Of a stretch of 29,717 nt of DNA, positions 1-19,254 are shown in pieces (positions within the stretch are counted from its first letter, which is position 1; the number at the start of each line of letters is the position of its first letter). The stretch lies in IMG/VR virus record IMGVR_UViG_3300028025_001135, positions 1 through 29,717 of that record; one strand, given 5' to 3'. Position numbers and translations under genes: made by a program. The DNA is from a virus. The notes under the pieces are model-generated. The model was given only the letters and a program-made list of their open reading frames with translations, made no database searches and was not told the DNA's origin.

Positions 1-1
1 T

Positions 2-30: not shown

Positions 31-35
31 GCCCT
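12..35 (-). terminator. Hairpin with short U-run overlapping a promoter
   Basis: On the minus strand AGGGCT (30-35) pairs with AGCCTT (14-19) around a 10-nt loop, with one G-T pair, and the RNA ends in four U, two of them in the stem. It begins at the stop codon of the 379-aa gene. The stem is short, so termination may be partial. RNA starting at the overlapping promoter would lack both arms and escape it. Confidence 0.45.
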
Positions 36-1173
36 ATTTGCTTCTAAGGGTCTTGACTTTGTGTCCAACTAGGGTGTCTGTTGGCTTGCCGTCACGGTAG
101 ATTCTAATGACTGCGGCTGGGTCTTCTGGTGTGCCTGTTACTGAGAAGTCTGAGTTGGGAACATTGTACTTACCATTTCTAATAATTCTAACAATCTTAC
201 CTGTTGCTGTACCCCCAGAAGAATTCCAGGAAACCATGCTACCAACGCCTACAGCCTTTGACAGACTAACTTCGTCTCTAGAATAATCTTTACCAAAATC
301 AGCGAACAAAGCCTTGTCTGCTTCTCTAGTTGCAATGCCACGGCTCCAAGAGAATCCAGCGTCACCGCCCCAAGCGTCCCACATAATTCTACCGTTGCTT
401 GGGTTGCTTGTGTTGTTAAAGTCCTTGCCCTTCTTGTCTACCTCGTGGCGTGAGAAAAATGAGTACATTCTTTTTACTACGCTAAGGGACATTGAGCGTC
501 CTGCTACGATATCTCTGGCTCTACCCCAGCCCACAGGAGTTCCTGCACCAGTGGCTTTGCCTTCTTCTTTCCAACGGATAGCACGAGCAGCAGCAGATTT
601 CATTCCAGCAGTTGGAGTATATCCCTCTGCCTTCTCTACACCATAGTCCATGCCGTATTCCATCTCGTCTTCGTCTTCACTATCCATTGTGTGACCTTCT
701 AAAGTCTCTAGGTATATCGCATCTTGGTACATCATGCCAATGCTGTATGCTGTTGGCTCCCATGTGCCTGGCTCGTCTTCGTCTTCTTCATAAATTCTAA
801 CAGCCATTGCTGGGTTCTCTGGCGGCATCGACTGAATGGCATACTCTGTTCCAGGAACACCGTATACACCACCCTCTGTCATAATGTGTTCTACCATGCC
901 GTGAACCATTCCCTCTGTGGTCATTCCCATTACATAGCAACCCTCCATGATTTCTCCACCCTGCTTGTACATGGCACTGATTGATGTGCCACCACTAGAG
1001 ACAGCACCAGAAGCATCGCTACCGTTGCCACCTTGCAACTTTGGTTTACGAAGTTTAACTTTCTTTCCCCCACGCATGGAGTCTGGTGTTCTTACACCAC
1101 TGTTAGGATAGTTAGGGTTTGGTGTGGACGATGGGTTTGCCCCAGCCACTGATTTAAAAAAGAATTGTTCCAT
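34..1173 (-). CDS. Phage protein with two Tudor-like repeats flanking a conserved core
   Basis: This 379-aa protein has three visible parts. The centre, about residues 185-285, contains AAARAIRWKEEGK, VKRMYSFFSRHEVD and WDAWGGDAGFSWSR, a block I recognise from proteins near the head genes of tailed phages, where it can be fused to or sit beside prohead protease. The last 70 residues resemble the small Tudor/SH3-like hypervirulence-associated domain (VSWNSSGG, GKIVRIIRNGKYNVP, PAAVIRIYRDG, TLVGHK). A diverged second copy seems to occupy about residues 68-145 (GMVEHIM, YGVPGTEYAI, PAMAVRIYEE). The N-terminus is low-complexity and an acidic stretch follows the first repeat. No Shine-Dalgarno precedes the ATG, but an extended -10 lies 6 nt upstream, suggesting leaderless translation. 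The role is unproven; a head-associated or DNA-handling function is a guess from context. Confidence 0.8.
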   Translation of the reverse strand: MEQFFFKSVAGANPSSTPNPNYPNSGVRTPDSMRGGKKVKLRKPKLQGGNGSDASGAVSSGGTSISAMYKQGGEIMEGCYVMGMTTEGMVHGMVEHIMTEGGVYGVPGTEYAIQSMPPENPAMAVRIYEEDEDEPGTWEPTAYSIGMMYQDAIYLETLEGHTMDSEDEDEMEYGMDYGVEKAEGYTPTAGMKSAAARAIRWKEEGKATGAGTPVGWGRARDIVAGRSMSLSVVKRMYSFFSRHEVDKKGKDFNNTSNPSNGRIMWDAWGGDAGFSWSRGIATREADKALFADFGKDYSRDEVSLSKAVGVGSMVSWNSSGGTATGKIVRIIRNGKYNVPNSDFSVTGTPEDPAAVIRIYRDGKPTDTLVGHKVKTLRSK

Positions 1174-1179
1174 TTGATT

Positions 1180-1188
1180 ATTGTACCA
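1180..1188 (-). promoter_or_regulatory. Extended -10 promoter, leaderless type
   Basis: The minus strand reads TGG (1186-1188) followed by TACAAT (1180-1185), with only 6 nt between the hexamer and the ATG at 1173. No -35 is evident 17 nt upstream. RNA would start at or next to the ATG. The same layout recurs at 23904 and 26507. Confidence 0.5.
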
Positions 1189-1232
1189 TATCTATTAAAG
1201 GTAGGCAGTTTTAAATCATACCCAGGATAGTT

Positions 1233-1259
1233 AGACTACTTCTTTGGGGTAGTCTTTTT
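1233..1259 (+). terminator. Plus-strand intrinsic terminator
   Basis: On the plus strand AGACTAC (1233-1239) pairs perfectly with GTAGTCT (1249-1255) across a 9-nt loop and is followed by four more T, giving a five-T run with the last stem base. On the minus strand the hairpin is preceded by A and has no U-run after it. It would therefore stop antisense RNA arriving from the left. It overlaps the 3' end of the holin-like gene, whose Lys-rich C-terminus uses the same bases. Confidence 0.5.
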
Positions 1260-1499
1260 GACTGGAGCCTTCTTAGGCGTAGCCTTTGCAAGTGCTTCCT
1301 TGATGTCCTCTTCCTTTGGAACGATGCCAAAAGCAGCGTCCTTTGGGTTGATGTATCTTAGAGCAACTGGCAAGACAGCAGCGACCAATGACCAGGCTAG
1401 GTCTAGTGGGTCAGTTACTCCTGCTAGGTATAGTGCAGAAGCCGCACCAAGTACGCTTCTTCCATACGATGCTAGTAGTGCCTTAATTTGTGCGTTCAT
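1236..1499 (-). CDS. Small membrane protein, holin candidate
   Basis: This 87-aa protein starts with a short polar segment, then one or two hydrophobic stretches (about residues 14-27 and 33-47, around LGAASALYLAGVTDP and LAWSLVAAVLPVALRYINP). It ends in a Lys/Pro/Ala-rich positively charged tail (PKKAPVKKTTPKK). Small proteins with the pattern GRSVLGA, AGVTDP, NPKDAAFG are common in actinobacteriophages and are sometimes labelled holins or minor structural proteins. A strong ribosome site (AAGGAG) sits 7 nt before the ATG. The holin role is inferred from size and topology; two other small membrane proteins at 6274-6689 are equal candidates. Confidence 0.6.
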   Translation of the reverse strand: MNAQIKALLASYGRSVLGAASALYLAGVTDPLDLAWSLVAAVLPVALRYINPKDAAFGIVPKEEDIKEALAKATPKKAPVKKTTPKK

Positions 1500-1519
1500 T
1501 TTTTTCTCCTTGTTAATGC

Positions 1520-1960
1520 CTAGTTGTTAGGCGTTTGGTTTTCCTTTGGCAATACTTCTTTTAGTTTTTCGTATGCCTTAGAAATTTTTGTTAATACGTT
1601 TGTGTGGGCTGTCTCACCTGATACCATGCCAAATGTTTTTGCCCACTGAAGTTCTGGTGCAATATCCTTATCAAATTCAGATAGGGCTGCTTGCACCTCT
1701 TCGATATACTGGAATGCCCAGTCACGAGATTCTGATACAAACTTCAGGAATCCGTCAGTCTGTTCCAGTTTAGCGTTTTCAATATCCTGATACAGTTCTT
1801 CCACCTTTTTCTGCAAAAGCATTCTATCTGCTAGTTCTTGCATGTATAGGTCAGACAGTGCTTTAAACAATGTCCGAGTCTTAAAGAATCTATAAACAAG
1901 ATAGATAATGATTGTTACTAATACCCCAACAACCACAGAGTCAATCCAAGATGGAATCAT
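1520..1960 (-). CDS. Membrane-anchored helical protein of unknown function
   Basis: This 146-aa protein opens with one clear membrane segment (about residues 9-25, VVVGVLVTIIIYLVYRF) followed by a charged, largely helical region. A coiled coil is likely at about residues 35-65 (Met/Leu/Glu/Lys-rich). The predicted topology is N-terminal anchor with a soluble domain. The start overlaps the end of the 77-aa gene region, with AGGAC 8-9 nt upstream of the ATG. A spanin-like role would fit the shape but not a Gram-positive-type host, so I leave the function open. Confidence 0.6.
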   Translation of the reverse strand: MIPSWIDSVVVGVLVTIIIYLVYRFFKTRTLFKALSDLYMQELADRMLLQKKVEELYQDIENAKLEQTDGFLKFVSESRDWAFQYIEEVQAALSEFDKDIAPELQWAKTFGMVSGETAHTNVLTKISKAYEKLKEVLPKENQTPNN

Positions 1961-1965
1961 TTACA

Positions 1966-2199
1966 TCAGTCCTTCAACGCTTCACGAACAATGTAAACAA
2001 TAGCACCATGCTCTTCCAACACTTTCTTTACATCTTTGATGTATTGAATAGCATCTTCTACTTGGTGGTCAAGAAGACTTTCAATGTCTTCTGGGTCAAT
2101 CTGAACAGTCAGAAAGTCATTGGCATCTAGGATAGTTACACCAAAGTTTTCTGGTGGTGTAAGTGCCTTGAATGCCGTTGCCATTTCAACAGTATACAT
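1966..2199 (-). CDS. Conserved small acidic phage protein, unknown
   Basis: This 77-aa protein begins MYTVEMATAFKALTPPENFG and continues with an acidic alpha/beta sequence (DANDFLTVQIDPEDIES) and a helical C-terminal half ending in VYIVREALKD. No catalytic or metal-binding motif is visible and no membrane segment is present. The start has AAGGAA 6 nt upstream of the ATG. It begins 1 nt after the WhiB-like stop codon, so the two are probably translated from one mRNA. I do not recognise a function. Confidence 0.6.
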   Translation of the reverse strand: MYTVEMATAFKALTPPENFGVTILDANDFLTVQIDPEDIESLLDHQVEDAIQYIKDVKKVLEEHGAIVYIVREALKD

Positions 2200-2200
2200 T

Positions 2201-2491
2201 TTATTCCTTATCTATCGTTAGGTCAGACCAGGTTTTAGCCCAGGCTTCTTTTGTTTTGTGTCTATTGAACTCTCTAGATATTTTTCCATTATCTAGATAC
2301 ACTCCGCCCCACACTCCAACCTGTTTGGTTGATACACCAACTGCAAAGCATTGACGCATTACAGGGCAGGTGGAACAGAACTCGTCCACGTCGCTTCTTA
2401 GTTCGACATCTTCTTCGTACTTGTCAAAGAAAAGATTGGTGTCCCAGCCGTCACACTTGGCAGAATCTCTCCAGTTTTTATCATCGGACAT
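2201..2491 (-). CDS. whiB: WhiB-family transcriptional regulator
   Basis: This 96-aa protein has the full WhiB signature: four cysteines at about C13, C39, C42 and C48 (C-x25-C-x2-C-x5-C) that would hold a 4Fe-4S cluster, then the turn GVWGGV at residues 59-64 and a basic C-terminal segment after it. WhiB proteins are restricted to Actinobacteria and their phages and act with the primary sigma factor at promoters. This copy could therefore redirect host RNA polymerase or interfere with a host WhiB. The ATG lies 11 nt inside the upstream gene, with GGTGAAGAAG as a probable ribosome site. Identification of the family is firm; the targets are unknown. Confidence 0.93.
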   Translation of the reverse strand: MSDDKNWRDSAKCDGWDTNLFFDKYEEDVELRSDVDEFCSTCPVMRQCFAVGVSTKQVGVWGGVYLDNGKISREFNRHKTKEAWAKTWSDLTIDKE

Positions 2492-2702
2492 TCTTCTTCA
2501 CCAATTTAGTTGGGATGTCCCAACCGCTTTCGCTAACGTCAAACCGATTGACTGTGTGCCACTCGTGCTTGATAAACTGGGCATTAGGCTGCATCCATGC
2601 TGTTGGCGACTTCTTCGCCTCTAGCACAGTCCAACCGTCCCACGACAAAGACTCATTGTTATCTACAATGGTCTCCATTTCTTCTAGTGATTTAATTAAC
2701 AT
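2481..2702 (-). CDS. Small phage protein, unknown
   Basis: I place the start at the ATG at 2702 rather than at 2735, because AGAGAGGTG lies at normal spacing before it; this gives 73 aa beginning MLIKSLEEMETIVDNN. The protein is Trp-rich (WDGWTVLE, AWMQP, HEWHTV, GWDIP), with a final basic KLVKKNVR. The composition suggests a compact domain of beta strands, but no family is clear to me. It ends inside the WhiB-like gene, consistent with translational coupling to it. Confidence 0.55.
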   Translation of the reverse strand: MLIKSLEEMETIVDNNESLSWDGWTVLEAKKSPTAWMQPNAQFIKHEWHTVNRFDVSESGWDIPTKLVKKNVR

Positions 2703-2715
2703 AATCACCTCTCTC

Positions 2716-3066
2716 TTAGTAGCGATAAACGCCAACTTCGATGCTCTTCGCTTCCGCTATGGAAACAAGGTCTGATAACGATTCTTTAGGCTTGCTAAAG
2801 AATAGAAAATAATTAATAGAATTAATATTGTCACGAATCCACGAAGGCGGAACTTTGACTAACTTAATCCTGACACCGTGTGCCTTCAGGCTACGCTCAG
2901 ATATGTTTGCAAACTCTAACGCAAATTGGTTAATGTTAACAGGACCAGCAGACATGATAGTAAACTCCTTATCATCTTCTGGTCTGTCACGCAAAGCGTT
3001 CCCAATACCACGCAAGAATACTGCGTAGTCAGTGAAACCTTTAGTTCCCTGAATCCCTACTATCAT
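2716..3066 (-). CDS. Conserved phage protein with Rossmann-like start, possibly SLOG-like
   Basis: This 116-aa protein starts with MIVGIQGTKGFTDYAVFLRG, continues with FTIMSAGPVNINQFALEFAN and NISERSLKAHGVRIKLVKV, and ends in EAKSIEVGVYRY. The beta strand, glycine turn and helix, then a second strand with SAGP, resemble Rossmann-like SLOG/DUF2493 proteins that bind nucleotides, but I cannot confirm this. Similar small proteins are familiar from several unrelated phages. It overlaps the 137-aa gene by 26 nt, with GGAAGGA about 7 nt before the ATG. Confidence 0.6.
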   Translation of the reverse strand: MIVGIQGTKGFTDYAVFLRGIGNALRDRPEDDKEFTIMSAGPVNINQFALEFANISERSLKAHGVRIKLVKVPPSWIRDNINSINYFLFFSKPKESLSDLVSIAEAKSIEVGVYRY

Positions 3067-3454
3067 TCGATAGTCCTTCCGTTAATCGTTCGACAACAAA
3101 TATCATCTTGTCTAATTCTACCTTATCAATGGTCGTCATGTCAACTGTTTTCTTATTTTCTTGGTCAACTCTACCATTTTCAAATTTTGCTGTATAAACT
3201 CTATTGTCTTCAATCCAGTATGCGTCTTCACCAACAAAGAATATGCGAGTGTATTGAGACTGATTGTGCTTTGCTGACTGAGACACTACTGGCTTAATCT
3301 CTGGCATAGGAATAAAATCCGCAACCAATTCGTACTGACGACTCTGACTAAAGTTTGTTTTAACAGACTTCATGCTGTTCTTAGGATGATTAACTAGTTT
3401 TGCAACAATATACATTGTCACTAGGGTTACTATCGAACCTGCAAAATATTCCAT
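3041..3454 (-). CDS. Conserved membrane-anchored phage protein, unknown
   Basis: This 137-aa protein begins with one hydrophobic segment (about residues 4-21, FAGSIVTLVTMYIVAKLV) and continues with a soluble domain with conserved-looking pieces: QYELVADFIPMPE, YTRIFFVGEDAYWIEDN, VYTAKFENG and DKVELDKMIFVVERLTEG. I recall similar proteins in other phages, but with no assigned role. The ribosome site AGGTGATT is 4-8 nt before the ATG. A promoter candidate with perfect TATAAT lies 16 nt further upstream. Confidence 0.65.
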   Translation of the reverse strand: MEYFAGSIVTLVTMYIVAKLVNHPKNSMKSVKTNFSQSRQYELVADFIPMPEIKPVVSQSAKHNQSQYTRIFFVGEDAYWIEDNRVYTAKFENGRVDQENKKTVDMTTIDKVELDKMIFVVERLTEGLSNDSRDSGN

Positions 3455-3470
3455 TTAATCACCTACGACT

Positions 3471-3499
3471 ATTATACTAGATTGTTGCATCAAAAGCAA
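3471..3499 (-). promoter_or_regulatory. Promoter candidate upstream of the small-gene cluster
   Basis: A perfect TATAAT (3471-3476) lies directly after the glycosyltransferase stop codon. A weak TTGCTT (3494-3499) sits 17 nt upstream within that gene. The spacing to the next start leaves room for a leader of about 10 nt with a Shine-Dalgarno. The poor -35 lowers confidence. Confidence 0.45.
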
Positions 3500-4397
3500 G
3501 CCAGTTTTGCTTTGCTTTGTCCCAGGTAAAGTTGTCGTGGATATCCTGTACCTGCTGTGTATAGTCATATCCATTTTCTTTAATCATCCTAATAGCCTTA
3601 GTTAGTTCTTCAGCATATTGTTCTGGTGTTAGTTCCTTAAACGGAATCATCTTTCCATACCCCAAAGATGTTTCTGGCAATGCTCCAAGGTCTGTGTGGA
3701 CCGTGTAGCATCCAGCAGAGAGTGCCTCCATCTGTGTAAGACAGGAGGTCTCTGGATAGATTGATGGGTAGGCGTGAATGTGTGCGTCTGCAAAAAACTT
3801 GTACAGGGTTTTGCGTGGTGTCTTGCCATAGAAATTTACTCGTGGGTCGTTTACACCATCTAGATTGTATGAGTGTGGTAAGTCTGGGTAGAAGTCGTTA
3901 AAGATATTAAGTTCAAAGTCTTCCTCAATTAACGGAACAGCCTTTAGCAAGACATCCATACCACGTTCGGCAGTAGATGCATGAATAAGTTTAACCTTAT
4001 TAATCTTTTTAAACTTATCTGGGTTTGGGGTAATTGGTTCAATTGCATTTGGAATTACATAAATTTTATCTGCACCAATATTCATCTCTTTTGCAAGAAC
4101 TTTCTTTTCGTATTCAGATACTGCAATGACACGCTCTGTGGCATTTTTAACTAACTTATTGTTTAGCACTCTCTCTACATGCCCCACAAATTGACTAACG
4201 TTATTGTGAAGCCAAAAGATATATCTGCTACCGTCAATCCCGATTGTCTGTAAGTCTGGCAGGTGTCCAGGAATAATTACATTAGTATAGTTATTGATAT
4301 TGGTCATGTGTGGCAAGATGTTTTTAATAAATCCTCTAGCCATTGTTTCTGTACCACCAAAGTAATTTTCATTGTATTTAAAAGTTGGGTGTGCCAT
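3477..4397 (-). CDS. GT4-family glycosyltransferase
   Basis: This 306-aa protein is a GT-B retaining glycosyltransferase of family 4. An N-terminal glycine motif, NYFGGTETMARGF, is at residues 11-23. The strand-helix segment ERVIAVSEYEKKVL, then IYVIPNAIEP (113-122), marks the domain linker. The donor-binding EX7E pattern is at E216 and E224 (YPETSCLTQMEALSAG). The donor is probably a nucleotide sugar. It is short for the family, mainly because the N-terminal domain is reduced. Phage GT4 enzymes may decorate virion proteins, DNA or host wall polymers; nothing here decides which. The ATG overlaps the stop of the DUF7455-type gene by one base, indicating coupling. Confidence 0.88.
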   Translation of the reverse strand: MAHPTFKYNENYFGGTETMARGFIKNILPHMTNINNYTNVIIPGHLPDLQTIGIDGSRYIFWLHNNVSQFVGHVERVLNNKLVKNATERVIAVSEYEKKVLAKEMNIGADKIYVIPNAIEPITPNPDKFKKINKVKLIHASTAERGMDVLLKAVPLIEEDFELNIFNDFYPDLPHSYNLDGVNDPRVNFYGKTPRKTLYKFFADAHIHAYPSIYPETSCLTQMEALSAGCYTVHTDLGALPETSLGYGKMIPFKELTPEQYAEELTKAIRMIKENGYDYTQQVQDIHDNFTWDKAKQNWLAFDATI

Positions 4398-4627
4398 TAG
4401 TCACTACCCTGAAGTCTATTTTCAATAAGTTTATCTCGTTCGTCAATAGTTTCAAAAGCAAACGAAGTTAGTTTTTCTTGGTGTCTATTGTAGTGGTGTC
4501 CACAGAAATCAAGTGAGCCTGTTACTCCTGTTACACGAACGTAGGCTTGTGCTCCACAATAGTCACATCTATCGGTGGCAGTTAGTTGCCATTCTTTTAC
4601 TGGTGTATCTAGAAGTTGCTCTGTCAT
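4397..4627 (-). CDS. DUF7455-type zinc-binding protein
   Basis: This 76-aa protein has a compact zinc-ribbon pattern: CDYCGAQAYVRV near residues 21-32, then a beta turn and DFCGHHYNRHQEKL (about 41-54). The pairing of C-x2-C with C-x2-H-H is typical of small DUF7455 proteins of Actinobacteria, often found beside sigma-factor or WhiB genes. The function is unknown; a nucleic-acid or RNA-polymerase partner would be plausible. It starts in a TAATG overlap with the FmdB-like gene and ends in an overlap with the glycosyltransferase, so all three form one operon. Confidence 0.75.
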   Translation of the reverse strand: MTEQLLDTPVKEWQLTATDRCDYCGAQAYVRVTGVTGSLDFCGHHYNRHQEKLTSFAFETIDERDKLIENRLQGSD

Positions 4628-4803
4628 TACTTATCCGTCCTGTAGAATCCGCTACCCTTGAAAGTTACTGCTCCTACTGAGTATACCTTAGTTAGAGTAA
4701 TTTTGCAAGTCTCGCATTCATATCCAGGGTCAGCGTCATTAACACCTCTAGTGACTACTAGTCTTACGTCACATTCTGGACATTTGTATTCGTATGATGG
4801 CAT
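4627..4803 (-). CDS. FmdB-like zinc-ribbon protein
   Basis: This 58-aa gene is easily missed because of its size. It begins MPSYEYKCPECDV and carries a second pair in YECETCKITLTKVYSVG, giving two C-x2-C knuckles about 19 residues apart. The start MPxYEYxC and the later aromatic GSGFYRTD are the hallmarks of FmdB-type regulatory zinc ribbons, whose precise role is not known. AAGGAG lies 5 nt before the ATG. The stop TAA shares a base with the ATG of the next gene. A terminator-like hairpin lies just upstream, so the mRNA for this gene may depend on read-through or an unseen promoter. Confidence 0.82.
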   Translation of the reverse strand: MPSYEYKCPECDVRLVVTRGVNDADPGYECETCKITLTKVYSVGAVTFKGSGFYRTDK

Positions 4804-4816
4804 TCTATCTCCTTAT

Positions 4817-4858
4817 AAAAATGTGCGTGGTAACCACATACAATGATTACCACGACAC
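4817..4858 (-). terminator. Intrinsic terminator after the endopeptidase gene
   Basis: On the minus strand the arm GTGTCGTGGTAA pairs with TTACCACGCAC, with one bulged base, to form an 11-bp stem (bases 4823-4858). It is followed by a run of five T (4817-4821). It is 9 nt past the M23 gene stop and just upstream of the FmdB-like ribosome site, so it would separate the lysin transcript from the following operon. Confidence 0.75.
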
Positions 4859-4866
4859 ATAATTAG

Positions 4867-5598
4867 TTATTCTGCTTTTGGTGCAGCCTTTGGTGCAACT
4901 GCAACAGGCTTAGTAGCAGGTGCTGGAGTTGGCTTTGCCACTGGCTTAGGTGCAACTGCAGGTTTTGCTGCTGGAGCCTTAGCCTTAACTGGCTTGACAA
5001 CCTTTGCTTCTGCTGGGTTAGCAACAGTTGGAACGTCAGGTAGTGAGTGAGTCGGAGCAACAGTTACTGTCGCATCGTCAGCAGTAGCCTTGTGTGCCTC
5101 TGCCTCAGCCTTTTCAAAAGCAATTACTGCCTTGATGAACGCCATTGGGTCGTAGTAACCCTTGCCTGTATTGAAACCAGCAAGTGGCTGACCCTTGATG
5201 TGACCTGCCCAGATTTCCCAGTGTAGGTGCTTACCAGTTGCGAAACCAGTTGCACCCATCTTACCAACGATTGTGCCAGCAGTAATCTTCTGACCAACCT
5301 TAACCTTGATTGAACCCTTAACCATGTGGAAGTAGGTCCATGTGACCTTCTTGCCCATCACGGTTGACTGAACAATAATTGAGTGACCACCAGATGTTGG
5401 TGAGTCGTTTGGCTTGACTGCAATTACTTTGCCGTCTGCCCATGCTTCTAGGTAGGTGGTTTCTCCACCCTGCCAGATGTCAACACCGTTGTGGTGTTTC
5501 TTTACTTTCTTAATTGGGTGCATTCTCCAACCGAATGGGGAAGTTACCTTCCAGGACTTGCCTGGGATTCCATCTACTGGATATTGTGATTTTGCCAT
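4867..5598 (-). CDS. M23-family peptidoglycan endopeptidase (endolysin)
   Basis: This 243-aa protein has a LytM/M23 zinc metallopeptidase domain in its first 155 residues. Zinc ligands are H36 and D40 (HHNGVDI) and H126 of HLHWE, with H124 and H91 (TYFHM) as catalytic histidines. The motifs SPFGWRMHP and GATGFATGKHLHWEI match the family. The last 70 or so residues are a Lys/Ala/Pro/Val-rich repeat (KPVAKP, PAPATKP), probably disordered and able to cling to cell wall. No signal peptide is seen, so a holin is needed for release unless it is virion-borne. AAGGAG precedes the ATG by 11 nt. It is the best endolysin candidate here. Confidence 0.92.
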   Translation of the reverse strand: MAKSQYPVDGIPGKSWKVTSPFGWRMHPIKKVKKHHNGVDIWQGGETTYLEAWADGKVIAVKPNDSPTSGGHSIIVQSTVMGKKVTWTYFHMVKGSIKVKVGQKITAGTIVGKMGATGFATGKHLHWEIWAGHIKGQPLAGFNTGKGYYDPMAFIKAVIAFEKAEAEAHKATADDATVTVAPTHSLPDVPTVANPAEAKVVKPVKAKAPAAKPAVAPKPVAKPTPAPATKPVAVAPKAAPKAE

Positions 5599-5622
5599 AT
5601 AGCATCATCTCCTTCTAAAATA

Positions 5623-5631
5623 ATTATACCA
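5623..5631 (-). promoter_or_regulatory. Extended -10 promoter for the endopeptidase gene
   Basis: The minus strand has TGG (5629-5631) and TATAAT (5623-5628), 24 nt before the start of the lysin gene. The region 17-18 nt upstream is the acceptor stem of tRNA-Thr and shows no -35. The motif equals those at 8675, 23904 and 26507. Confidence 0.55.
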
Positions 5632-5645
5632 TAAAGCATAATCTG

Positions 5646-5717
5646 AGCCACCTAACAGAATCGAACTGTTGACCTCCATATTACAAGTATGGCACTCTAC
5701 CGCTGAGTTAAGGTGGC
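5646..5717 (-). tRNA. tRNA-Thr (UGU)
   Basis: This 72-nt gene folds into a full cloverleaf: acceptor GCCACCT/AGGTGGC, D stem ACTC/GAGT, anticodon stem CCATA/TATGG with loop CTTGTAA (anticodon UGU), T stem AACAG/CTGTT with loop TTCGATT. The discriminator base is U and the CCA end is not encoded, so the host must add it. Confidence 0.95.
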
Positions 5718-5721
5718 GAAG

Positions 5722-5795
5722 CGATTCCGATGGGACTTGAACCCACGACCTCTACCGTGACAGGGTAGCGTTCTAACCAACTGAACTACGAAATC
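5722..5795 (-). tRNA. tRNA-Asp (GUC)
   Basis: This 74-nt gene has a full cloverleaf: acceptor GATTTCG/CGGAATC (one G-U pair), D stem GTTC/GAAC, anticodon stem CTACC/GGTAG with loop CTGTCAC (anticodon GUC), T stem GTGGG/CCCAT with loop TTCAAGT. The discriminator is G, as in tRNA-Asp. CCA is not encoded. It lies 4 nt upstream of tRNA-Thr. Confidence 0.95.
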
Positions 5796-5896
5796 AAATG
5801 CCCCTTGTCAAAACCCAGATAGGGACAACATCTGTAACAGTTTTTACTAGTATCCTGTTAAAGCCATCTATGCTTTCGCATACCGCTTGGTGTGTG
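5796..5896 (-). other. Structured noncoding spacer between tRNA-Asn and tRNA-Asp
   Basis: These 101 nt hold no reading frame of note and no fourth cloverleaf. On the minus strand there are three successive hairpins: TATGC/GCATA closed by a GAAA tetraloop (about 5867-5880), TAACAG/CTGTTA with a 14-nt loop (about 5834-5859), and TTGTC/GACAA enclosing CC/GG (about 5804-5827). An alternative pairing AGATGG/CTATCT also exists. It may be a small RNA or a processing element of the tRNA transcript. No known RNA family is recognised. Confidence 0.45.
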
Positions 5897-5969
5897 CTGG
5901 GCATCCAGGGCTCGAACCTGGGACATTTCGATTAACAGTCGAACACTCTGCCAACTGAGTTAATGCCCA
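5897..5969 (-). tRNA. tRNA-Asn (GUU)
   Basis: This 73-nt gene has a perfect 7-bp acceptor TGGGCAT/ATGCCCA with discriminator G, D stem ACTC/GAGT, anticodon stem TTCGA/TCGAA with loop CTGTTAA (anticodon GUU), and T stem CCAGG/CCTGG with loop TTCGAGC. CCA is not encoded. It is the first tRNA of the cluster, about 9 nt after the predicted transcription start. Confidence 0.95.
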
Positions 5970-5984
5970 TTACTTTCTTCTTCA

Positions 5985-6013
5985 AGTATACCTGAATCAG
6001 AAAGCGTTGTCAA
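5985..6013 (-). promoter_or_regulatory. Consensus promoter for the tRNA cluster
   Basis: On the minus strand TTGACA (6008-6013) is followed after 17 nt by TATACT (5985-5990), placing the RNA start near 5978, just before tRNA-Asn. The -35 is part of the wider ACTTGACAA motif shared with other promoters here and overlaps one arm of an inverted repeat. Confidence 0.8.
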
Positions 6014-6032
6014 GTTCTAAATTAGGAACTTG
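6011..6032 (-). repeat. Inverted repeat overlapping the tRNA promoter -35
   Basis: The minus strand has CAAGTTC and GAACTTG as perfect 7-bp arms around an 8-nt loop. The second arm runs into TTGACA. It also covers the stop codon of the 63-aa gene. There is no U-run, so an operator or mRNA 3' hairpin is more likely than an intrinsic terminator. Confidence 0.5.
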
Positions 6033-6208
6033 GTAACTGGTGAGCAAGGGTCTCCGCCCTCTTCCCACTCTGCTTCTTCTTCTTCTGTCATGTATGGGTC
6101 GCCATCATGTGTGTAACAGAATGGTTCGGTAATCCAGCCTTTCTGAATACCAAAATCCATCCACTCCCAGACTTCTGTTTTGTCTGCAATGTTTTTCTTA
6201 TTGAACAT
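6017..6208 (-). CDS. Conserved small acidic phage protein, unknown
   Basis: This 63-aa protein has the sequence pattern WEWMDFGIQKGW, CYTHDGDPYMTEEEEAEWEEGGDPC and a hydrophobic end. The combination of a single THDG turn with a run of glutamates and GGDPC recurs in small proteins of actinobacterial phages, but no role is assigned. Two cysteines are present, about 24 residues apart. The ribosome site AGAGAGGG lies 7 nt before the ATG and is also the right arm of a hairpin. It is the only protein gene directly after the strong promoter at 6237-6265, before the tRNAs. Confidence 0.75.
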   Translation of the reverse strand: MFNKKNIADKTEVWEWMDFGIQKGWITEPFCYTHDGDPYMTEEEEAEWEEGGDPCSPVTKFLI

Positions 6209-6210
6209 AT

Positions 6211-6257
6211 AAAAACCCTCTCTAGGTCATGTATCAATTATACAGTACTAGAGAGGG
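6211..6257 (-). terminator. Terminator hairpin with a promoter -10 in its loop
   Basis: The minus strand has perfect 10-bp arms CCCTCTCTAG (6248-6257) and CTAGAGAGGG (6216-6225) around a 22-nt loop, followed by five T (6211-6215). Read-through RNA from the holin-like operon would form the terminator. RNA initiated at the enclosed promoter starts near 6230 and lacks the first arm. In that RNA the Shine-Dalgarno AGAGAGGG, carried by the second arm, would be free. Confidence 0.75.
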
Positions 6258-6265
6258 CTTGTCAA
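6237..6265 (-). promoter_or_regulatory. Perfect consensus sigma70 promoter
   Basis: TTGACA (6260-6265), exactly 17 nt, and TATAAT (6237-6242) on the minus strand are all consensus. The -35 is within ACTTGACAAG. It lies directly after the holin-like stop codon and drives the 63-aa gene and perhaps the tRNAs. It is interlaced with the terminator hairpin at 6211-6257. Confidence 0.9.
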
Positions 6266-6273
6266 GTATGTTT

Positions 6274-6510
6274 CTACTTCTCTGAAGGGATGTTGTCCAC
6301 AAATGCACGGTCAATTTCGTCTTCTGTAAGTTCTCCATCGTTTAGGTAGCCACGAGCAAGGTCTTCTATAACGTTAGCGACACCCATGATACCAGCAAGG
6401 AGTGCTGCCTGTACGACATCAATACCAATCGCTGCACCAGCACCTACGGTTGCTAGGGCTGAGACCAAAAACAATGAAAGCATACGCTTTGCAATCTTTA
6501 AGTAATTCAT
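6274..6510 (-). CDS. Small membrane protein, holin-like
   Basis: This 78-aa protein has two hydrophobic segments (about residues 10-31, MLSLFLVSALATVGAGAAIG, and 33-49, DVVQAALLAGIMGVANV), then an acidic helical tail with DGELTEDEIDRAF. The layout AKRM, GAAIGIDVV, LAGIMGVANVIEDLARGYL is familiar from small actinophage proteins often called holins. AAGGAGG lies 7 nt before the ATG. The start shares a base with the stop of the 59-aa membrane protein, so the pair is co-translated. Two small membrane proteins in a row suggest a holin pair, although the lysin is about 700 bases further downstream behind a terminator. Confidence 0.7.
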   Translation of the reverse strand: MNYLKIAKRMLSLFLVSALATVGAGAAIGIDVVQAALLAGIMGVANVIEDLARGYLNDGELTEDEIDRAFVDNIPSEK

Positions 6511-6689
6511 TAATCTTCCTCCTTATCTTTTGGATTTCTGAGTGGATAGGTAATCATCCATAGAACTGACGTTCCCATGATTGCCCAACCTACTACTTCT
6601 TTTGCTGAACCCTCAAGGACCAGCCACGCAACGAACATACCAAGGAGTGTCCAGGCTTGACCCAATAGGTCATTTAAAAATTTCTTCAT
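6510..6689 (-). CDS. 59-aa two-segment membrane protein, holin candidate
   Basis: This gene is shorter than 60 codons but well supported. It begins MKKFLNDLLGQAW and has two hydrophobic stretches, about residues 13-26 (TLLGMFVAWLVL) and 32-50 (VVGWAIMGTSVLWMITYPL), and a charged end (RNPKDKEED). TAATG overlaps couple it both to the PA14 gene before it and the 78-aa gene after it. AAGGAGG lies 8 nt upstream of the ATG. The hairpin topology is that of class II holins, but a partner for the anchored PA14 protein is also possible. Confidence 0.75.
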   Translation of the reverse strand: MKKFLNDLLGQAWTLLGMFVAWLVLEGSAKEVVGWAIMGTSVLWMITYPLRNPKDKEED

Positions 6690-8638
6690 TAATCTTTCCT
6701 CCTTATGCTTGATGTTCCACCTGAGCCACCTGCTGATACAGATGCTGCTGCCGATGGTGCTGCTGCAGTAAGTGCTGCTCCTGTTGCTGCATTGACTGCT
6801 GCTCCAACAGCAACAACTGCTGTCACAACAATCTTTTTAGATTCTTCTCTTACCTTTGGAGACATGTCAGAACCTACGTTACCCATAAAGTTAATTGCGT
6901 CTGCAAGGGCTACAACGGTTGCTCCAAGTACTGGCACTGCTGCTAATTCTTCGTTTACTTCAATGTCGTCTGCTTGGGCTGCAACGAATAGGGCATCAAG
7001 AGCCTCTTCATATTCTGGGGAGCCTTGCTCTGAATTTTCCAGGATTTCATTTGCTACAGATATAAGTTCTGTTACTTGCTCTTCTGAAAGGGATTGTGGG
7101 TCTACCGTCGCAACATTTACTGGTAACTCAGGTTCACTGGGTTCGGGGGACACTGGCGGCTCTGGTTCTGGTAGCGGTTCTGGGATAATTTCTGTTGGCT
7201 TTTCAATAGGTTTCGGGGTCTCTTCAGGCGTAGGTGTTGGCTCGGTAAAAGGTGGAATGGCTTGTAGTTCTTGTTGACGGACAATCAATTCCTCCTGTTT
7301 ATTTGTTACATCCAGGGATGCTACTTCAATTATACTTGCCTTTTCTGTCTGCGTAACTACTGATGTATCATAGTCTCTCTTAGCATCTGTCTGGTTACTT
7401 GTTGCTACCGATAAGTTTTGTTCTGCTGTAGAGACCTCAGCATTTGCCTGTATAATTGCTGGCAATAGTTCTGGGTTTTTAATCAATGGTGCTTCGGCAT
7501 CCTCGTCTGGGACTAGCACAATAATTTCTTCTTCTCTAAATCTAAGTTCATCTCTAAATAAAGTAATCTCGTCATAGACAATAACCTCGTCGTACACAAT
7601 CTCTTCTGTAAAGTAAGTTACCTCTTGATACCTAACGACTGGTTGATAGACTATCTCTGTTACTGTTCGTTCTCCAAACCAGGTTGCAGGAACTACTTCC
7701 ATGATACCGCCATCAACCTGTGAGTAAAGTTGTACCCATGCTCCGCCACCATTCTCATAGTAATACAAGGTGGTTGGATAAAGAATACCTGCTCTAATCC
7801 ACATAGGCTCAGAAGTTGTTCCGCCCCCACCCTTGTCTCTCCAGTCATTGATTAGTGACATTCCAGCAATAGTTAGTTTGACTCCATCATCTCCTGGTGC
7901 ATAGAAACTATACCAGTTGTCTTCTGGAACCATAATGTTTCCCTCAAATTTAACAAGAACGTCTTCGGACTTTCCAGAGTTTAGAACTAATCCACTAAAC
8001 CATTGGAAGTCAATGTTGGGTACGTTCATGCTGGCAAGCGGTGTCTCTGATTCGGTTGGTATTGGTGGGGCATTGTTGTATCCTTGTCTATTGTAGGATG
8101 TTGCTGTAAGTCCACCTGGAACTACAGTTGTAACTTCAACTGGTTCATAATCTAAATAAGGTTGCAACTCTGTGTGTGGAACTAAGATTGTTCTTGGAAC
8201 TAATTCTGTTCTTAGAACTAACTGAGTGTATGGGACCTGAACCGTATACGGCACTTGAATAATTTCCACCTGTTCTTTAGTAGGTCTTACCCAGTCAGCA
8301 TCTGGAATTAGTTTTGTGTTGTATTCTGTCTGAGCCAACTCTAGGCTTGCTTGTGCTTTAGTTAAAAGTAATTCTTTGTTCTGCACATCTATAATTTTGT
8401 TATCTAGAATTGTTTTGTTTGACTCTACCGTGGCATCTATGATAGCCTTGTTATTTACGGCTGCCTGGTATGCATCTTGAGCAATGACCAGGGCATCTTG
8501 GGCAGCACTAATCTTAGCCTGTGCTTCTGCTATAACTGCATCATACTCAGCCCTTGTTTCGGCAGAGGCTGTGGACGGAAAGAATAGGCAGGAAAAGGCT
8601 AGTAGTATTGCGAATAATAGTCTAGGGGTCTTATTAAT
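6689..8638 (-). CDS. Exported, membrane-anchored PA14-domain protein (AUU start)
   Basis: The frame extends upstream of the GTG at 8386 to an ATT at 8638 with GAGGAG 8 nt before it; this start gives 649 aa with a classic signal peptide (residues 1-26, basic start, LLFAILLAFSCLFF, cleavage after ASA). No ATG, GTG or TTG occurs in frame between the upstream stop and the signal peptide. Then follow a coiled coil (about 27-113), a beta-repeat of VPYT/VPRT/VPHT units (120-169), a PA14-like domain (206-319: NWYSFYAPGDDGVKL, NDWRDKGGGG), a second tyrosine-rich beta repeat (324-377), a second coiled coil (389-462), a Pro-rich linker (463-509), an acidic helical part, an Ala/Val membrane segment (about 602-629) and a basic tail IRRKD. 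PA14 domains bind carbohydrate or act as spacers in adhesins. I infer a surface-displayed stalk with a PA14 head, made in the infected cell; receptor masking or cell adhesion is possible. A virion fibre is less likely because of the signal peptide. Confidence 0.8.
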   Translation of the reverse strand: MNKTPRLLFAILLAFSCLFFPSTASAETRAEYDAVIAEAQAKISAAQDALVIAQDAYQAAVNNKAIIDATVESNKTILDNKIIDVQNKELLLTKAQASLELAQTEYNTKLIPDADWVRPTKEQVEIIQVPYTVQVPYTQLVLRTELVPRTILVPHTELQPYLDYEPVEVTTVVPGGLTATSYNRQGYNNAPPIPTESETPLASMNVPNIDFQWFSGLVLNSGKSEDVLVKFEGNIMVPEDNWYSFYAPGDDGVKLTIAGMSLINDWRDKGGGGTTSEPMWIRAGILYPTTLYYYENGGGAWVQLYSQVDGGIMEVVPATWFGERTVTEIVYQPVVRYQEVTYFTEEIVYDEVIVYDEITLFRDELRFREEEIIVLVPDEDAEAPLIKNPELLPAIIQANAEVSTAEQNLSVATSNQTDAKRDYDTSVVTQTEKASIIEVASLDVTNKQEELIVRQQELQAIPPFTEPTPTPEETPKPIEKPTEIIPEPLPEPEPPVSPEPSEPELPVNVATVDPQSLSEEQVTELISVANEILENSEQGSPEYEEALDALFVAAQADDIEVNEELAAVPVLGATVVALADAINFMGNVGSDMSPKVREESKKIVVTAVVAVGAAVNAATGAALTAAAPSAAASVSAGGSGGTSSIRRKD

Positions 8639-8652
8639 TTGTTTTTCTCCTC
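8636..8652 (-). promoter_or_regulatory. Ribosome binding site with AUU start codon
   Basis: GAGGAG (8647-8652, minus strand) is followed after 8 nt by ATT AAT AAG (from 8638). The spacing is ideal and the signal peptide begins right there, so AUU is the most likely start. AUU starts are known from infC and depend on initiation factor 3 levels. A single-base error of an original ATG would look the same. Confidence 0.6.
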
Positions 8653-8674
8653 GTTGGAAATGTCCAACAAGAAT

Positions 8675-8703
8675 ATTATACCATTATATTACGTTAATGT
8701 TAA
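8675..8703 (-). promoter_or_regulatory. Promoter for the PA14/holin operon
   Basis: TATAAT (8675-8680) with TGG directly upstream forms an extended -10; TTAACA (8698-8703, one mismatch to TTGACA) is 17 nt upstream. It overlaps the last codons of the large terminase gene and leaves a leader of about 30 nt before the AUU start. Confidence 0.7.
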
Positions 8704-10480
8704 ACTGTTTAAAGTAGGATTCAAGGTCTTTATCTGCTGGTTTGTTGCGTTGAACGATGTCACGCTTATCAAACTCGTGTAATTCTTCTGTTGGTCTCCT
8801 GTCACGGAATGTATGTATCTCTACCATCTGGTTGTTGTCCCTTGCTGTGTGGGAGATAGCACCAAAGATAGCACCACAAACAGCGTCTGCAAGGTCCTTG
8901 GAGGACTTTCTGGGGTGGTCTACACGATTACCCTTCATAATTTTCAACTCCGTTAGTTCTTCAAACAGAAGGTCGATGGCTGGTAGGGCTAGTCGTTCCT
9001 CATAAACAAGCATAGCCATATCTTCGTAGTGCTTCTTAGCAACAGAAACAGTCTCAGTCTTTATACCAACAGACTTCAATTCGTTCTGGATATCAAATGA
9101 CTGCCAGCGGTCGAAGGAGACCATTCCCAAATCAAAGCCTAGTCTGCGTAGGTTCTGAATCCACTGCTTTACTTCTGAAAGGTTAACAGGACCTTCAATC
9201 TTTGGCTCCCAATATACTACTGCATCTACCACTACGATAGGCATTACTTGTTGATAGTCCTTAACTACCTGAACATTTACCCACTTCTCAACGTGAGCAA
9301 TAGCCACAGCACACTTGTCGTGGCGTTGTGCAAGGTCAGCGTGAACAAAGTATTTCTTGTCTGGGTCTGGCTTGAATGAGTCCATAAAACTTTTGTTAGA
9401 GTCAATTGGGTTTACGATTGTCATACAGGCACGAATCTTTTCTTGCTGCTTGAAGAACGCATCTGACATGTAGGTTGGTACGCAAGCAAAACGTTGCATG
9501 GCATCACCAAGGTCTGTATAAAATGCCAACTTGAAGTCGTCAATCTTACGAGTAGGGTTTACTACCCACGTCGGTCTTTTAATAGCAAACATTCCTGGAA
9601 ACTTGTAGGAGAGGATTGTATCTTCGTCCCACTCAATCTCAAGGGTGTTTCCTTCTGCATCTTCTGGTAGGTCTGGATTCATAACAAACTTGTGATGCTT
9701 TGTGATAACTTCTTTCTCTGCAATCACCGCATCGTATCTCTGGGAGATAAAGTCTCCAGGGTAACGTGGGAAGGATAGCAGGGCTACCTTACCTAGGTCG
9801 GGGAAGCGAGAGTCCACAGAAGCACGGAAGGCTTTGTAGATGTTGTCAGCAGTCTTACCTTGGTCGTTACCAGTTCCAACCTCTTGAGCAAAACCAGAAA
9901 TCTCGTCAAGTACTGCTAGGATAAGGTTCAGACCTTCGTGAGACTCACGCTCTGAGTGACCAGAGTAAACTGTGATGGCTTGGTCAAACTCAATGCTGTC
10001 TGCCTTGGCATAGAACTTTCCAGCAAACCAAGGAGAGCGTTCAATCTTATTCTTGAAGCCTTTGAAGAAAACGTTCTTAGCCTGTTGTGCGTTGATAGCG
10101 ATGTTGATAATGTCAATAGCATCTCCTGTTGGCTTACCAAAGTAGCGAGCAGGGTCTTTAAGGCAAAGTAGTTTATAAACGATGTAGCAACATGCTACTG
10201 TGGAAACGAAGTCCTTACCAGAACCCTTTCCTAGTTGTAGGATAACTTCATTCTTAGTATACTTATTGTAGTATCTACGACCTTCTGTATCCCCCATGAT
10301 TTCAATGACTTCTTCTAGTTTGTAGATTTGGCTCATAGCCTCTACAATGTCGTACTGAATTTGTGATAGTGGTGGTTGCTGTAGATAGTCTTCACCCTCA
10401 ACAAATGTTTTAACGTCTACTGGAACTTCAGCAAAGACGTTGCTTTTCAGTACCTCAAAGAACTCATTGAACATTGACAA
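8684..10480 (-). CDS. terL: Terminase large subunit
   Basis: This 598-aa protein is the DNA-packaging motor. The N-terminal ATPase has Walker A GKGSGKD (84-90) and Walker B LILAVLDEIS with D192-E193. The C-terminal RNase H-like nuclease shows the acidic residues D382 (FVHADLAQRHD), D457 (VSFDRW) and D532 (DLADAVCGA). Length and order match the family. Two starts are possible: TTG at 10480 has AGGAAG at 9 nt, while the ATG at 10474 is too far from it, so I prefer the TTG. It overlaps the small terminase-like gene by 17 nt. The C-terminus ends in the promoter of the PA14 operon. Confidence 0.95.
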   Translation of the reverse strand: MSMFNEFFEVLKSNVFAEVPVDVKTFVEGEDYLQQPPLSQIQYDIVEAMSQIYKLEEVIEIMGDTEGRRYYNKYTKNEVILQLGKGSGKDFVSTVACCYIVYKLLCLKDPARYFGKPTGDAIDIINIAINAQQAKNVFFKGFKNKIERSPWFAGKFYAKADSIEFDQAITVYSGHSERESHEGLNLILAVLDEISGFAQEVGTGNDQGKTADNIYKAFRASVDSRFPDLGKVALLSFPRYPGDFISQRYDAVIAEKEVITKHHKFVMNPDLPEDAEGNTLEIEWDEDTILSYKFPGMFAIKRPTWVVNPTRKIDDFKLAFYTDLGDAMQRFACVPTYMSDAFFKQQEKIRACMTIVNPIDSNKSFMDSFKPDPDKKYFVHADLAQRHDKCAVAIAHVEKWVNVQVVKDYQQVMPIVVVDAVVYWEPKIEGPVNLSEVKQWIQNLRRLGFDLGMVSFDRWQSFDIQNELKSVGIKTETVSVAKKHYEDMAMLVYEERLALPAIDLLFEELTELKIMKGNRVDHPRKSSKDLADAVCGAIFGAISHTARDNNQMVEIHTFRDRRPTEELHEFDKRDIVQRNKPADKDLESYFKQFNINVI

Positions 10481-10997
10481 TAGTTATTACTTCCTGTTCC
10501 CTAGATACTTGAGAAAGCCTACGCATAATCTCGTCTCGTACCTGTGGATACTCGCTTGCAATATCTCTAAGAATACCAACAAGGATATCCTGCTTGCGTT
10601 CAATCTCTAGCATTTCTTCTGCGAGTTCTTTGTTCTCAAGTAGACCAGCCTTCTGTAGCATGTCTATACGAGTCTTCTCTAGGTCCATCACAAGTTTAAT
10701 ACCTGCGGTCTTAGCCCCTAGATTGGCTGTGGTAGTTGCATCGTCAATTACTTCGTATGCTTTACTAATTAGTTTGTTATAGTGCGTATCTGCTCCCACC
10801 AGGGCTTCCTTAGCCCTAGCACGGATAGCAGCATTGTCTGAAGCCATCACACGCCATTGGTTAATGTGTGCGACTACCTTTTGTCTTGGTAGAGCAAGTT
10901 CCTTAGAGATGGCTGTTGGCTCTTCGCCTTGGAGATATTTCTCCACAACCTTGTTCATCTCGTCAAGATGTTCTACCGTTAAGTCTTCAATCGACAA
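10464..10997 (-). CDS. Probable terminase small subunit
   Basis: This 177-aa, largely helical protein begins with a helix-turn-helix-like segment (about residues 15-50: MNKVVEKYLQGEEPTAISKE, ALPRQKVVAHINQW), followed by long helices (KLVMDLEKTRIDMLQKAGLLENKELAEE) suited to oligomerisation. Position directly before terL with overlapping ends, size and HTH plus helical layout all fit a small terminase that recognises the packaging site. The sequence itself is not strongly diagnostic to me. The start is TTG at 10997, preceded by purine-rich GGGGAAGG and AAGAAG. Confidence 0.7.
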   Translation of the reverse strand: MSIEDLTVEHLDEMNKVVEKYLQGEEPTAISKELALPRQKVVAHINQWRVMASDNAAIRARAKEALVGADTHYNKLISKAYEVIDDATTTANLGAKTAGIKLVMDLEKTRIDMLQKAGLLENKELAEEMLEIERKQDILVGILRDIASEYPQVRDEIMRRLSQVSREQEVITIVNVQ

Positions 10998-11274
10998 TCT
11001 TCTTACGCCTTCCCCTGCGAGCAGGAATTCTTTTCACTCTCTCAATTGCAAATGAGCAGTACTGTCCTGACGTTGCTTTTTGCACTTCAAAGCAGTCTAT
11101 CCACATTGCACCAGTCTCAGTATTAGTAACAACACTGTCGAACTTGAACTTACGCCCATGCTCGTCCTGTATCTTAATTATATCACCCTTGACGATTGTG
11201 AATGTGCCTACCTGAAGTTCGTATACACGAGAGAATTTAGTTGGTCCTGGCTTAGTTTTTCTGCGACTAATCAT
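10987..11274 (-). CDS. Conserved small basic phage protein (DUF7246-like)
   Basis: This 95-aa protein has a beta-rich centre (VYELQVGTFTIVKGDIIKIQDEHGRKFKFDSVVTN in two halves) and ends with RVKRIPARRGRRKK, a strongly basic tail suited to nucleic-acid binding. The pattern of a KGD turn in an SH3-like barrel followed by an RIP-RRGRR tail is known in many actinophages next to terminase genes, with no proven role. It sits between the lipoprotein and the small terminase and shares overlaps with both. Confidence 0.7.
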   Translation of the reverse strand: MISRRKTKPGPTKFSRVYELQVGTFTIVKGDIIKIQDEHGRKFKFDSVVTNTETGAMWIDCFEVQKATSGQYCSFAIERVKRIPARRGRRKKIVD

Positions 11275-11750
11275 TAGTTAGGAAGTTCCAACTTCTCGTC
11301 TACCGAAAATACTAGGGCTACCTGTTCTCCAGGATTTACCTTTAGGTCTGCAATCCCCTTGTCAGCGTAAGTCCAGTCCTTATCTGGTGTACGAATCAGC
11401 AATGCCCAGTATGCAAACATTGCTGGCATCTCCTCGCACTTCTCAACATATGAATCTTGGTCTTTGCTAACAACTGGAGTGACCGCATCTGGAAGACCAT
11501 TTACACGACATACAATCTGCAGACCGTACTTGTCTGTTCCAGCAACAGAGTATCCTGCAAGATTGAAAGCAGTCATTGCTTCAATTTCAGAACCTGCGGC
11601 AACACAGGTCTGTGTCTTCTCACTCTTTAGTGATTGGAAGTCAACAATAACTGTTACGCAATTGTCTGGACTTACAACGTTCTGCTGAGTTACACAACCT
11701 GTGGTGGCTAAAGCCAAACCTAGGGCTAGTGCTATGGCTGTATTTTTCAT
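11274..11750 (-). CDS. Exported lipoprotein, possibly DUF4430-like
   Basis: I place the start at the ATG at 11750, because it begins a lipoprotein signal peptide (MKNTAIALALGLALATTGC) with the lipidated cysteine at residue 19 and has AAGGA upstream; the longer frame to 11816 has no such logic. The protein is then 158 aa. The mature part has five further cysteines and a pattern (MTAFNLAGYSVAGTDKYG, IVCRVNGLPDAV, YWALLIRTPDKDWTYADKGI) resembling DUF4430 domains, which relate to cobalamin-binding proteins; that match is moderate. Phage-encoded lipoproteins in other systems block DNA entry by later phages, so superinfection exclusion is a candidate role. The ATGA overlap couples it to the HTH gene. 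Confidence 0.75.
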   Translation of the reverse strand: MKNTAIALALGLALATTGCVTQQNVVSPDNCVTVIVDFQSLKSEKTQTCVAAGSEIEAMTAFNLAGYSVAGTDKYGLQIVCRVNGLPDAVTPVVSKDQDSYVEKCEEMPAMFAYWALLIRTPDKDWTYADKGIADLKVNPGEQVALVFSVDEKLELPN

Positions 11751-11902
11751 CGTTTTGATTTCCTTAATCCGAACTTGGCTAGATATACATAGATAGTTTC
11801 TACGCTCGTGCCACATTCTTTTGCAATATCTTGAGGCGTTTTCTTATCTAGGTGGTAACGCTTCTTTAACCACGCTTCACTAGTATACAACTTATTTGCC
11901 AT
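11747..11902 (-). CDS. Small helix-turn-helix protein
   Basis: The ATG at 11902 gives a 51-aa protein that is almost entirely one HTH: SEAWLKKRYHLDKKTPQDIAKE, then CGTSVETIYVYLAKFGLRKSKR, divided by the turn after the first helix. The longer frame from 11977 runs through the resolvase gene and lacks a ribosome site. Small homeodomain-like HTH proteins of this kind occur in phages as free-standing DNA-binding units or as remnants of homing endonucleases. It starts 4 nt after the resolvase stop; the ribosome site is weak. Confidence 0.7.
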   Translation of the reverse strand: MANKLYTSEAWLKKRYHLDKKTPQDIAKECGTSVETIYVYLAKFGLRKSKR

Positions 11903-11906
11903 GATG

Positions 11907-12482
11907 TCAATACCCAAAAGCCTTATCCCAATTAGACAAAGCCCAGTGACCAATTGCACACGCATCTGCAACATCATCGTCGTCTAGTTGTTTGTCGTAA
12001 TTAATATTAATAAAGTTAATTGTTCTCTGCTTGCGAACCTTACGCTCTTCGCCCTTGAACCAGGAAACAGACTTGCCTGGATTCTTCTTTTGAATCTCAT
12101 GCTTTTCTTCTTTAGTTAGTTTCTTATTACCAATAAAGTTCTGCCAAGTCATGGGTGAGACTGAGCCAATCTTCTTTACCCCAGACATAGAAGCAGCCCC
12201 AAGTAAGGCTCCCTGGACCATAGCCAGTTGAGCAGCAGTCTTAGGGCTGTTCATAAATACTGTGTGTTCAATTATAACTGCTTCAAAATTAAAGTTATCA
12301 AAGAATGCTTTAGTCTTTCTAGCAGCATCCATAACCTTATCGTATGTGTGTAAGCCTTCAAAGTTAATCTTGCCACAGGCAATAATCTTTTTGTCTTCGA
12401 AGATAGCAAACGCAAGACTATTTGTACTAGCGTCAATGGCACAGAATTGTTTTGGCTTCTTAATCAAATTCAATTTTACCAT
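11907..12482 (-). CDS. RuvC-like Holliday junction resolvase
   Basis: I start at the ATG at 12482 (191 aa), because AAGGG lies 8 nt before it. The RNase H-fold acidic residues are visible: D17 in FCAIDASTNS, E72 in VIIEHTVFMNSP, and D170/D173 in LDDDDVADACAIGHWAL. The segment KKIGSVSPMTWQNFIG and the basic stretch KGEERKVRKQR are also typical of phage RuvC relatives. It would cut four-way junctions or branched DNA made by the RecA-like protein before packaging. It starts inside the Zn-finger gene and precedes the terminase operon. Confidence 0.85.
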   Translation of the reverse strand: MVKLNLIKKPKQFCAIDASTNSLAFAIFEDKKIIACGKINFEGLHTYDKVMDAARKTKAFFDNFNFEAVIIEHTVFMNSPKTAAQLAMVQGALLGAASMSGVKKIGSVSPMTWQNFIGNKKLTKEEKHEIQKKNPGKSVSWFKGEERKVRKQRTINFININYDKQLDDDDVADACAIGHWALSNWDKAFGY

Positions 12483-13549: not shown

Positions 13550-13556
13550 AACGACA

Positions 13557-13862: not shown

Positions 13863-13887
13863 TTTGTTTCCTTAATGTTGTAGTTCT

Positions 13888-19248: not shown

Positions 19249-19254
19249 GTGACG

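Follow-up and report, generated by a model that had tools for sequence, protein, structure and literature searches.

Neighbouring phage operons can be separated by a terminator followed by a promoter, in which a GC-rich hairpin and a U-run after the last gene of one operon precede a sigma-70 type promoter. Intrinsic terminators combine a GC-rich stem and a directly adjoining U-run with a short loop (3–8 nt), while sigma-70/SigA type promoters have -35 and -10 hexamers spaced by 16–18 nt and a start ~7 nt downstream. In the insertion sequences IS10 and IS50, work by Davis, Simons and Kleckner from 1985 reportedly established that transcripts arriving from outside fold and hide the ribosome-binding site of the transposase gene, and that the internal promoter yields RNA without the first arm of this fold. 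Lastly, the extended start-associated sequence (ESAS) of Cluster K mycobacteriophages is present in multiple copies of near-constant sequence, and according to its authors there is little to support an mRNA hairpin (PMC3203893, PMC11373665).

Here we describe an element from a 29,717-nucleotide stretch of viral DNA (the window, which means the whole stretch analysed), in which a start signal, an apparent stop signal and a ribosome-binding site are packed into ~60 bases between two neighbouring genes. We observed a layout shared among relatives, covarying arms, a fixed position, essentially a single copy and a predicted difference in the accessibility of the Shine-Dalgarno (SD) sequence, and we consider it probable that the element closes a holin-like operon with a block to read-through, made up of a terminator and SD sequestration, to which a promoter for restarting transcription is fused. 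A literature search with partial coverage returned no published description of such an element and nothing relevant on overlapping promoters and terminators. Direct reading of the sequence placed the element on the minus strand and bore out an earlier note, made from the sequence alone, in which a perfect TTGACA-17-TATAAT promoter, a 10-bp hairpin and a five-U run had been reported as interlaced. In minus-strand order, it consists of TTGACA (6265–6260), AG, CCCTCTCTAG (6257–6248), TACTG, TATAAT (6242–6237), TGATACATGAC, CTAGAGAGGG (6225–6216), TTTTT (6215–6211), AT and ATG (6208–6206). The features of the locus are as follows:

6689..8386, minus strand: 565-aa PA14-domain gene of the upstream unit
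6510..6689, minus strand: 59-aa small gene of the upstream unit
6274..6510, minus strand: 78-aa holin-like membrane-protein gene, whose stop codon precedes the element in nearly all relatives
6260..6265, minus strand: -35 hexamer TTGACA, 8 nt past the stop codon of the holin-like gene
6248..6257, minus strand: hairpin arm 1, CCCTCTCTAG, within the promoter spacer and covarying
6237..6242, minus strand: -10 hexamer TATAAT, in the hairpin loop and in a small inner helix (UGUAU/AUACA)
6230, minus strand: predicted transcription start (+1), the seventh base past the -10 and in the loop, from comparison with leaderless relatives
6216..6225, minus strand: hairpin arm 2, CTAGAGAGGG, holding the SD
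6222–6216, minus strand: SD GAGAGGG, part of arm 2, 7 nt from the ATG of the 63-aa gene
6211..6215, minus strand: T-run, the U-tract of the putative terminator, doubling as part of the spacer between SD and start codon
6017..6208, minus strand: 63-aa gene with a conserved THDGDPYMT motif, the predicted target of the element's promoter

At the sequence level the promoter is of the sigma-70/SigA type, and its 12/12 match, with a spacing of 17 nt, was the only 12/12 match in a promoter scan of positions 1–20000. The best inverted repeat of the window is that of the element (13 nt, 92%). Nonetheless, two perfect 10-bp repeats with a gap of 12–40 nt were found in the window versus 0.8 expected, so a perfect repeat alone is not rare and conservation is needed as the deciding evidence. 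The arms enclose an outer loop of 22 nt, within which the fold prediction places an inner helix around a 5-nt loop, and arm 1 ends 18 nt ahead of the predicted +1. Rfam gave no match at the element.

Dozens of related viral contigs have the same layout written in other letters, as in L019, whose arms are CCCCTTTCAG/CTGAAAGGGG. In 1.44 Mb of related loci (both strands) there are 70 instances of the interlaced combination, versus 7 in shuffled sequences; ~20 of the 70 are weak-promoter matches that resemble chance. Across 35 aligned elements TTGAC is invariant. In an alignment of 29 elements, 98.3% of cells are paired over the ten pairs, compared with 35–66% in slid controls. In eight of the ten pairs both sides have changed; C-G/U-A and U-A/C-G exchanges occur, as do G-U pairs, and RNAalifold, unaided, predicts the identical ten pairs. 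Because the elements of this first sample had been chosen for pairing, a second sample was drawn by means of the holin-like protein instead, giving 81 distinct downstream regions of which 60 have a promoter. The interlaced hairpin is present in 53 of these 60, although the sequences are related to each other and such counts are not independent events. In the holin-selected sample, an element's own left and right sides pair better than swapped ones (7.75 versus 5.92 bp; 0 of 2,000 permutations).

Sequence around the arms is constrained as well. SD and start codon are separated by 6–8 nt in 50 of the 53 elements, and the six nucleotides past arm 2 hold at least four T in 41 of 53 relatives and at least three in 52 of 53. 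No comparable A-run lies ahead of arm 1, and the signal thus has one direction. U-tracts are weak in some relatives (CUUUGUC, ACUUUC), and in L264 and L235 the hairpin and SD are present and the U-run is absent.

Copy number was assessed with a covariance model built without the -35, which gave essentially one strong match per phage record, in nearly all records; many of the weaker matches are the identical site on the opposite strand. A dispersed repeat within one genome was rejected on this basis. In the holin-selected sample the element lies 0–21 nt past the stop codon of the holin-like gene. The gene that follows belongs to any of four families (63-aa, 129-aa, 174-aa beginning MTCIA, and 550-aa). 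Where the 63-aa family adjoins the holin-like gene, 19 of 21 promoters have the hairpin and 2 are plain; elsewhere, the hairpin is found in only 4 of 34, the other 30 being plain and mostly leaderless, and 9 further genes have no promoter (Fisher P = 5e-9 for hairpin versus plain by holin-like neighbour, relatedness ignored). Against this pattern, the hairpin also precedes a few 63-aa homologues without a recognised holin-like gene upstream (L036, L051 and L069). Given its fixed place past the holin-like gene and this contrast, the element, judged from gene neighbourhood, is conserved and is mainly a feature of where the holin-like operon ends, not of the 63-aa gene, a point beyond the view of the earlier note.

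Among candidate stretches in viral contigs, 361 relatives of the 63-aa protein were found, and its family (GWITEPFCYTHDGDPYMT motif) is common in such contigs; the family has no match in Pfam or PHROGs and none in the annotated phage collection. The holin-like protein matches PHROGs family phrog_26427, labelled nuclease, but a conserved glycine- and alanine-rich hydrophobic stretch suggests that this label is wrong. Its gene has no match in genome contigs and one relative in the phage collection, in Actinomycetia phage DSL-LC01, a lake-metagenome assembly without the element; from this single metagenome-assembled relative, the host is presumed to be a freshwater actinobacterium. Marine-type relatives of the holin-like gene also have no element, and there the next gene starts at once.

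The position of the transcription start was calibrated on the plain leaderless promoters of the 63-aa gene family, in which the gap between the -10 and the ATG is exactly 6 nt in 31 of 33 cases; the leaderless promoters among these relatives (L012–L079) are strikingly uniform. By this measure +1 is expected at 6230, in the loop, in agreement with the start near 6230 that the earlier note had proposed, and promoter-started RNA would therefore lack arm 1 and contain all of arm 2. Helices were assessed with simple rules and energy models. The predicted folding energy of RNA spanning the whole element is -27.1 kcal/mol (z = -6.5 versus shuffles), whereas RNA without arm 1 has no significant fold (z = +0.6). 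Mean folding energies are -25.2 kcal/mol for read-through RNA and -8.2 kcal/mol for promoter-started RNA. The earlier note had proposed that the SD in the second arm is freed in promoter-started RNA, and the predicted probability of the SD being unpaired rises from 0.007 in read-through RNA to 0.47. A leaderless two-codon open reading frame (AUG-ACC-UAG) at the predicted 5' end was considered and dropped: its ATG is ATA in the close relatives L005, L017 and L025, and it is thus not conserved.

From these data we infer termination, initiation and translational gating, along with any role in timing, in the following form. A polymerase arriving from the holin-like operon would transcribe both arms, the read-through RNA would carry the hairpin and U5, and most transcripts would end near 6211; in a transcript that leaked through, the SD of the next gene would be locked in the stem. 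A polymerase at the element's own promoter would initiate at ~6230, in the loop, and since its RNA lacks arm 1 no hairpin would form and arm 2 would be free as a ribosome-binding site. In this way, ~60 bp would give the next gene a promoter of its own and keep upstream transcription out of it. As a counterpoint to the terminator role, the 22-nt outer loop exceeds that of usual intrinsic terminators, though the inner helix may nucleate folding. The logic of insulating, restarting and gating, which the earlier note had put forward, gains comparative support from the covarying arms, the one-sided T-run, the SD spacing, the fixed position and relatives in which the functions are split.

In these split relatives the parts can be seen separately. 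L177 (3190–3380) has an ordinary small-loop hairpin and T-run at the element's site, followed by a separate promoter and a leaderless gene. L048 (4860–4995) has no recognisable -35 but keeps the hairpin, whose loop holds a relic of the -10, together with a T6 run; downstream of the hairpin lies a new promoter. L195 retains the hairpin, including a -10 within the loop, as well as a T-rich stretch, and its SD lies further downstream. The hairpin might accordingly be a terminator and promoter only, the overlap of arm 2 with the SD being an economy of space without translational gating: L195 fits this account, as do L048 and L177, which retain a terminator without an SD in the arm. We regard it as possible but lean against it, since the SD spacing is narrowly kept, the SD is predicted to be nearly all paired in read-through RNA, and L264 and L235 retain hairpin and SD without the U-run. 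Those same two relatives, in which pairing persists despite the missing U-run, are what would be expected if the hairpin were mainly a translational lock on read-through mRNA and a poor terminator, as in the IS10/IS50 transposase genes, and the large outer loop and the weak U-tracts in 12 of 53 relatives point the same way. That account is unlikely, however, because the T-rich stretch follows the arm immediately in most relatives (at least four T of six in 41 of 53), L177 has an ordinary terminator at exactly the element's site, and L048 keeps the hairpin and U6 with no gene start attached. Together, L177, L048, L195, L264 and L235 favour termination as the main role, with translational gating as the second.

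An explanation at the level of DNA is that the inverted repeat is an operator, with a dimeric repressor on both arms blocking the promoter, as has been suggested for the Cluster K ESAS. The dyad is centred on the promoter, the arm centres are 32 bp (about three helical turns) apart, and for the ESAS, with its similar layout, the authors propose a regulator (PMC11373665). We nevertheless consider an operator very unlikely: the letters of the arms vary freely while pairing is kept, G-U pairs included, there is essentially one copy per genome, the T-run is one-sided, and the SD placement and the terminator-like split relatives fit it poorly. Chance complementarity between a CT-rich promoter spacer and an AG-rich SD, without selection for pairing, could draw on the composition bias of both parts and on the ~0.8 perfect 10-bp repeats expected per window at such spacing. 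It is contradicted by covariation, with changes on both sides in most pairs, by the superiority of own over swapped arms and by the absence of the hairpin from plain promoters of the 63-aa gene family, and has practically no likelihood.

Other hairpins were noted in the window, all on the minus strand. Ahead of tRNA-Asn (5969–5896), a promoter TTGACA-17-TATACT (5973–6013) places its -10 within a hairpin loop; the hairpin, CTTTCT-GA-TTCA/TGAA-GA-AGAAAG, ends 3 nt before the tRNA and has neither a T-run nor an SD. Similar hairpins occur at 5 of 18 distinct tRNA promoters in related loci (each P ~0.01 or better), and L005 and L010 differ by compensatory changes. Since this second kind of interlaced hairpin, seen before some tRNA-Asn genes, lacks both U-run and SD, a further role for hairpins around -10 boxes is possible. 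At 8650–8703, a promoter TTAACA-17-TATAAT is followed by a short hairpin, CTTGTTGG/CCAACGAG, overlapping a GAGGAG SD. A 12-bp hairpin, CGTGGTAATCATTGTATGTGGTTACCACG (4826–4854), just past an M23 peptidase gene (4867–5598), is a candidate for an ordinary terminator.

Returning to the read-through block with restart promoter, we tentatively suggest, with somewhat less than even confidence, that it represents a class of phage regulatory element not described before: the hairpin closing the preceding operon would have a promoter built into it, so that 60 bp terminate, restart and gate, and the same phages would reuse the principle of a -10 in the loop directly before some tRNA genes. If so, such a hairpin would be a general means of separating adjoining transcription units, and would show how a compact genome insulates and restarts transcription in minimal space, with three overwritten signals and compensatory evolution. 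It would explain how the holin-like operon is separated from the following genes in phages of freshwater actinobacteria, offer a natural and directly testable design for a read-through-proof promoter, and mean that annotation pipelines demanding short loops overlook such terminators.

Compared with the systems outlined above, the element resembles the Cluster K ESAS in that a short inverted repeat overlaps a SigA-like promoter a little way before the start of a phage gene, in both cases in actinobacterial phages (presumed here). The ESAS, however, is a 17-bp imperfect, near-constant repeat with several copies per genome, while the element is essentially single-copy with variable arms; upstream of Adephagia gene 91, the ESAS repeat includes the -35, has no T-run and leaves the SD in a separate 13-bp sequence. 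This ESAS-linked 13-bp SAS, GGGATAGGAGCCC, is absent from 6265–6206. With IS10 and IS50 the element would share the logic of a self-blocking read-through RNA and an escaping internal-promoter RNA, arm 1 lying upstream of the predicted start and arm 2 over the ribosome-binding site. In those transposable elements the arm comes from the terminal repeat. The arm described here sits within the promoter spacer and is joined by a U-run, and the site is a boundary between phage operons, fixed past the holin-like gene with no adjacent transposase. Like an intrinsic terminator, the element has a 10-bp stem directly followed by U5, but its 22-nt outer loop kept it off the list of the terminator scan, and we therefore claim it as terminator-like rather than as a standard intrinsic terminator. 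A GC-rich hairpin and U-run after the last gene of an operon, with a sigma-70 type promoter, are common to the element and to the terminator-then-promoter arrangement, which L177 has in exactly its separate form at the element's site; in the element the two are interlaced, arm 1 falling within the spacer, the loop holding the -10, and arm 2 serving as the Shine-Dalgarno of the next gene.
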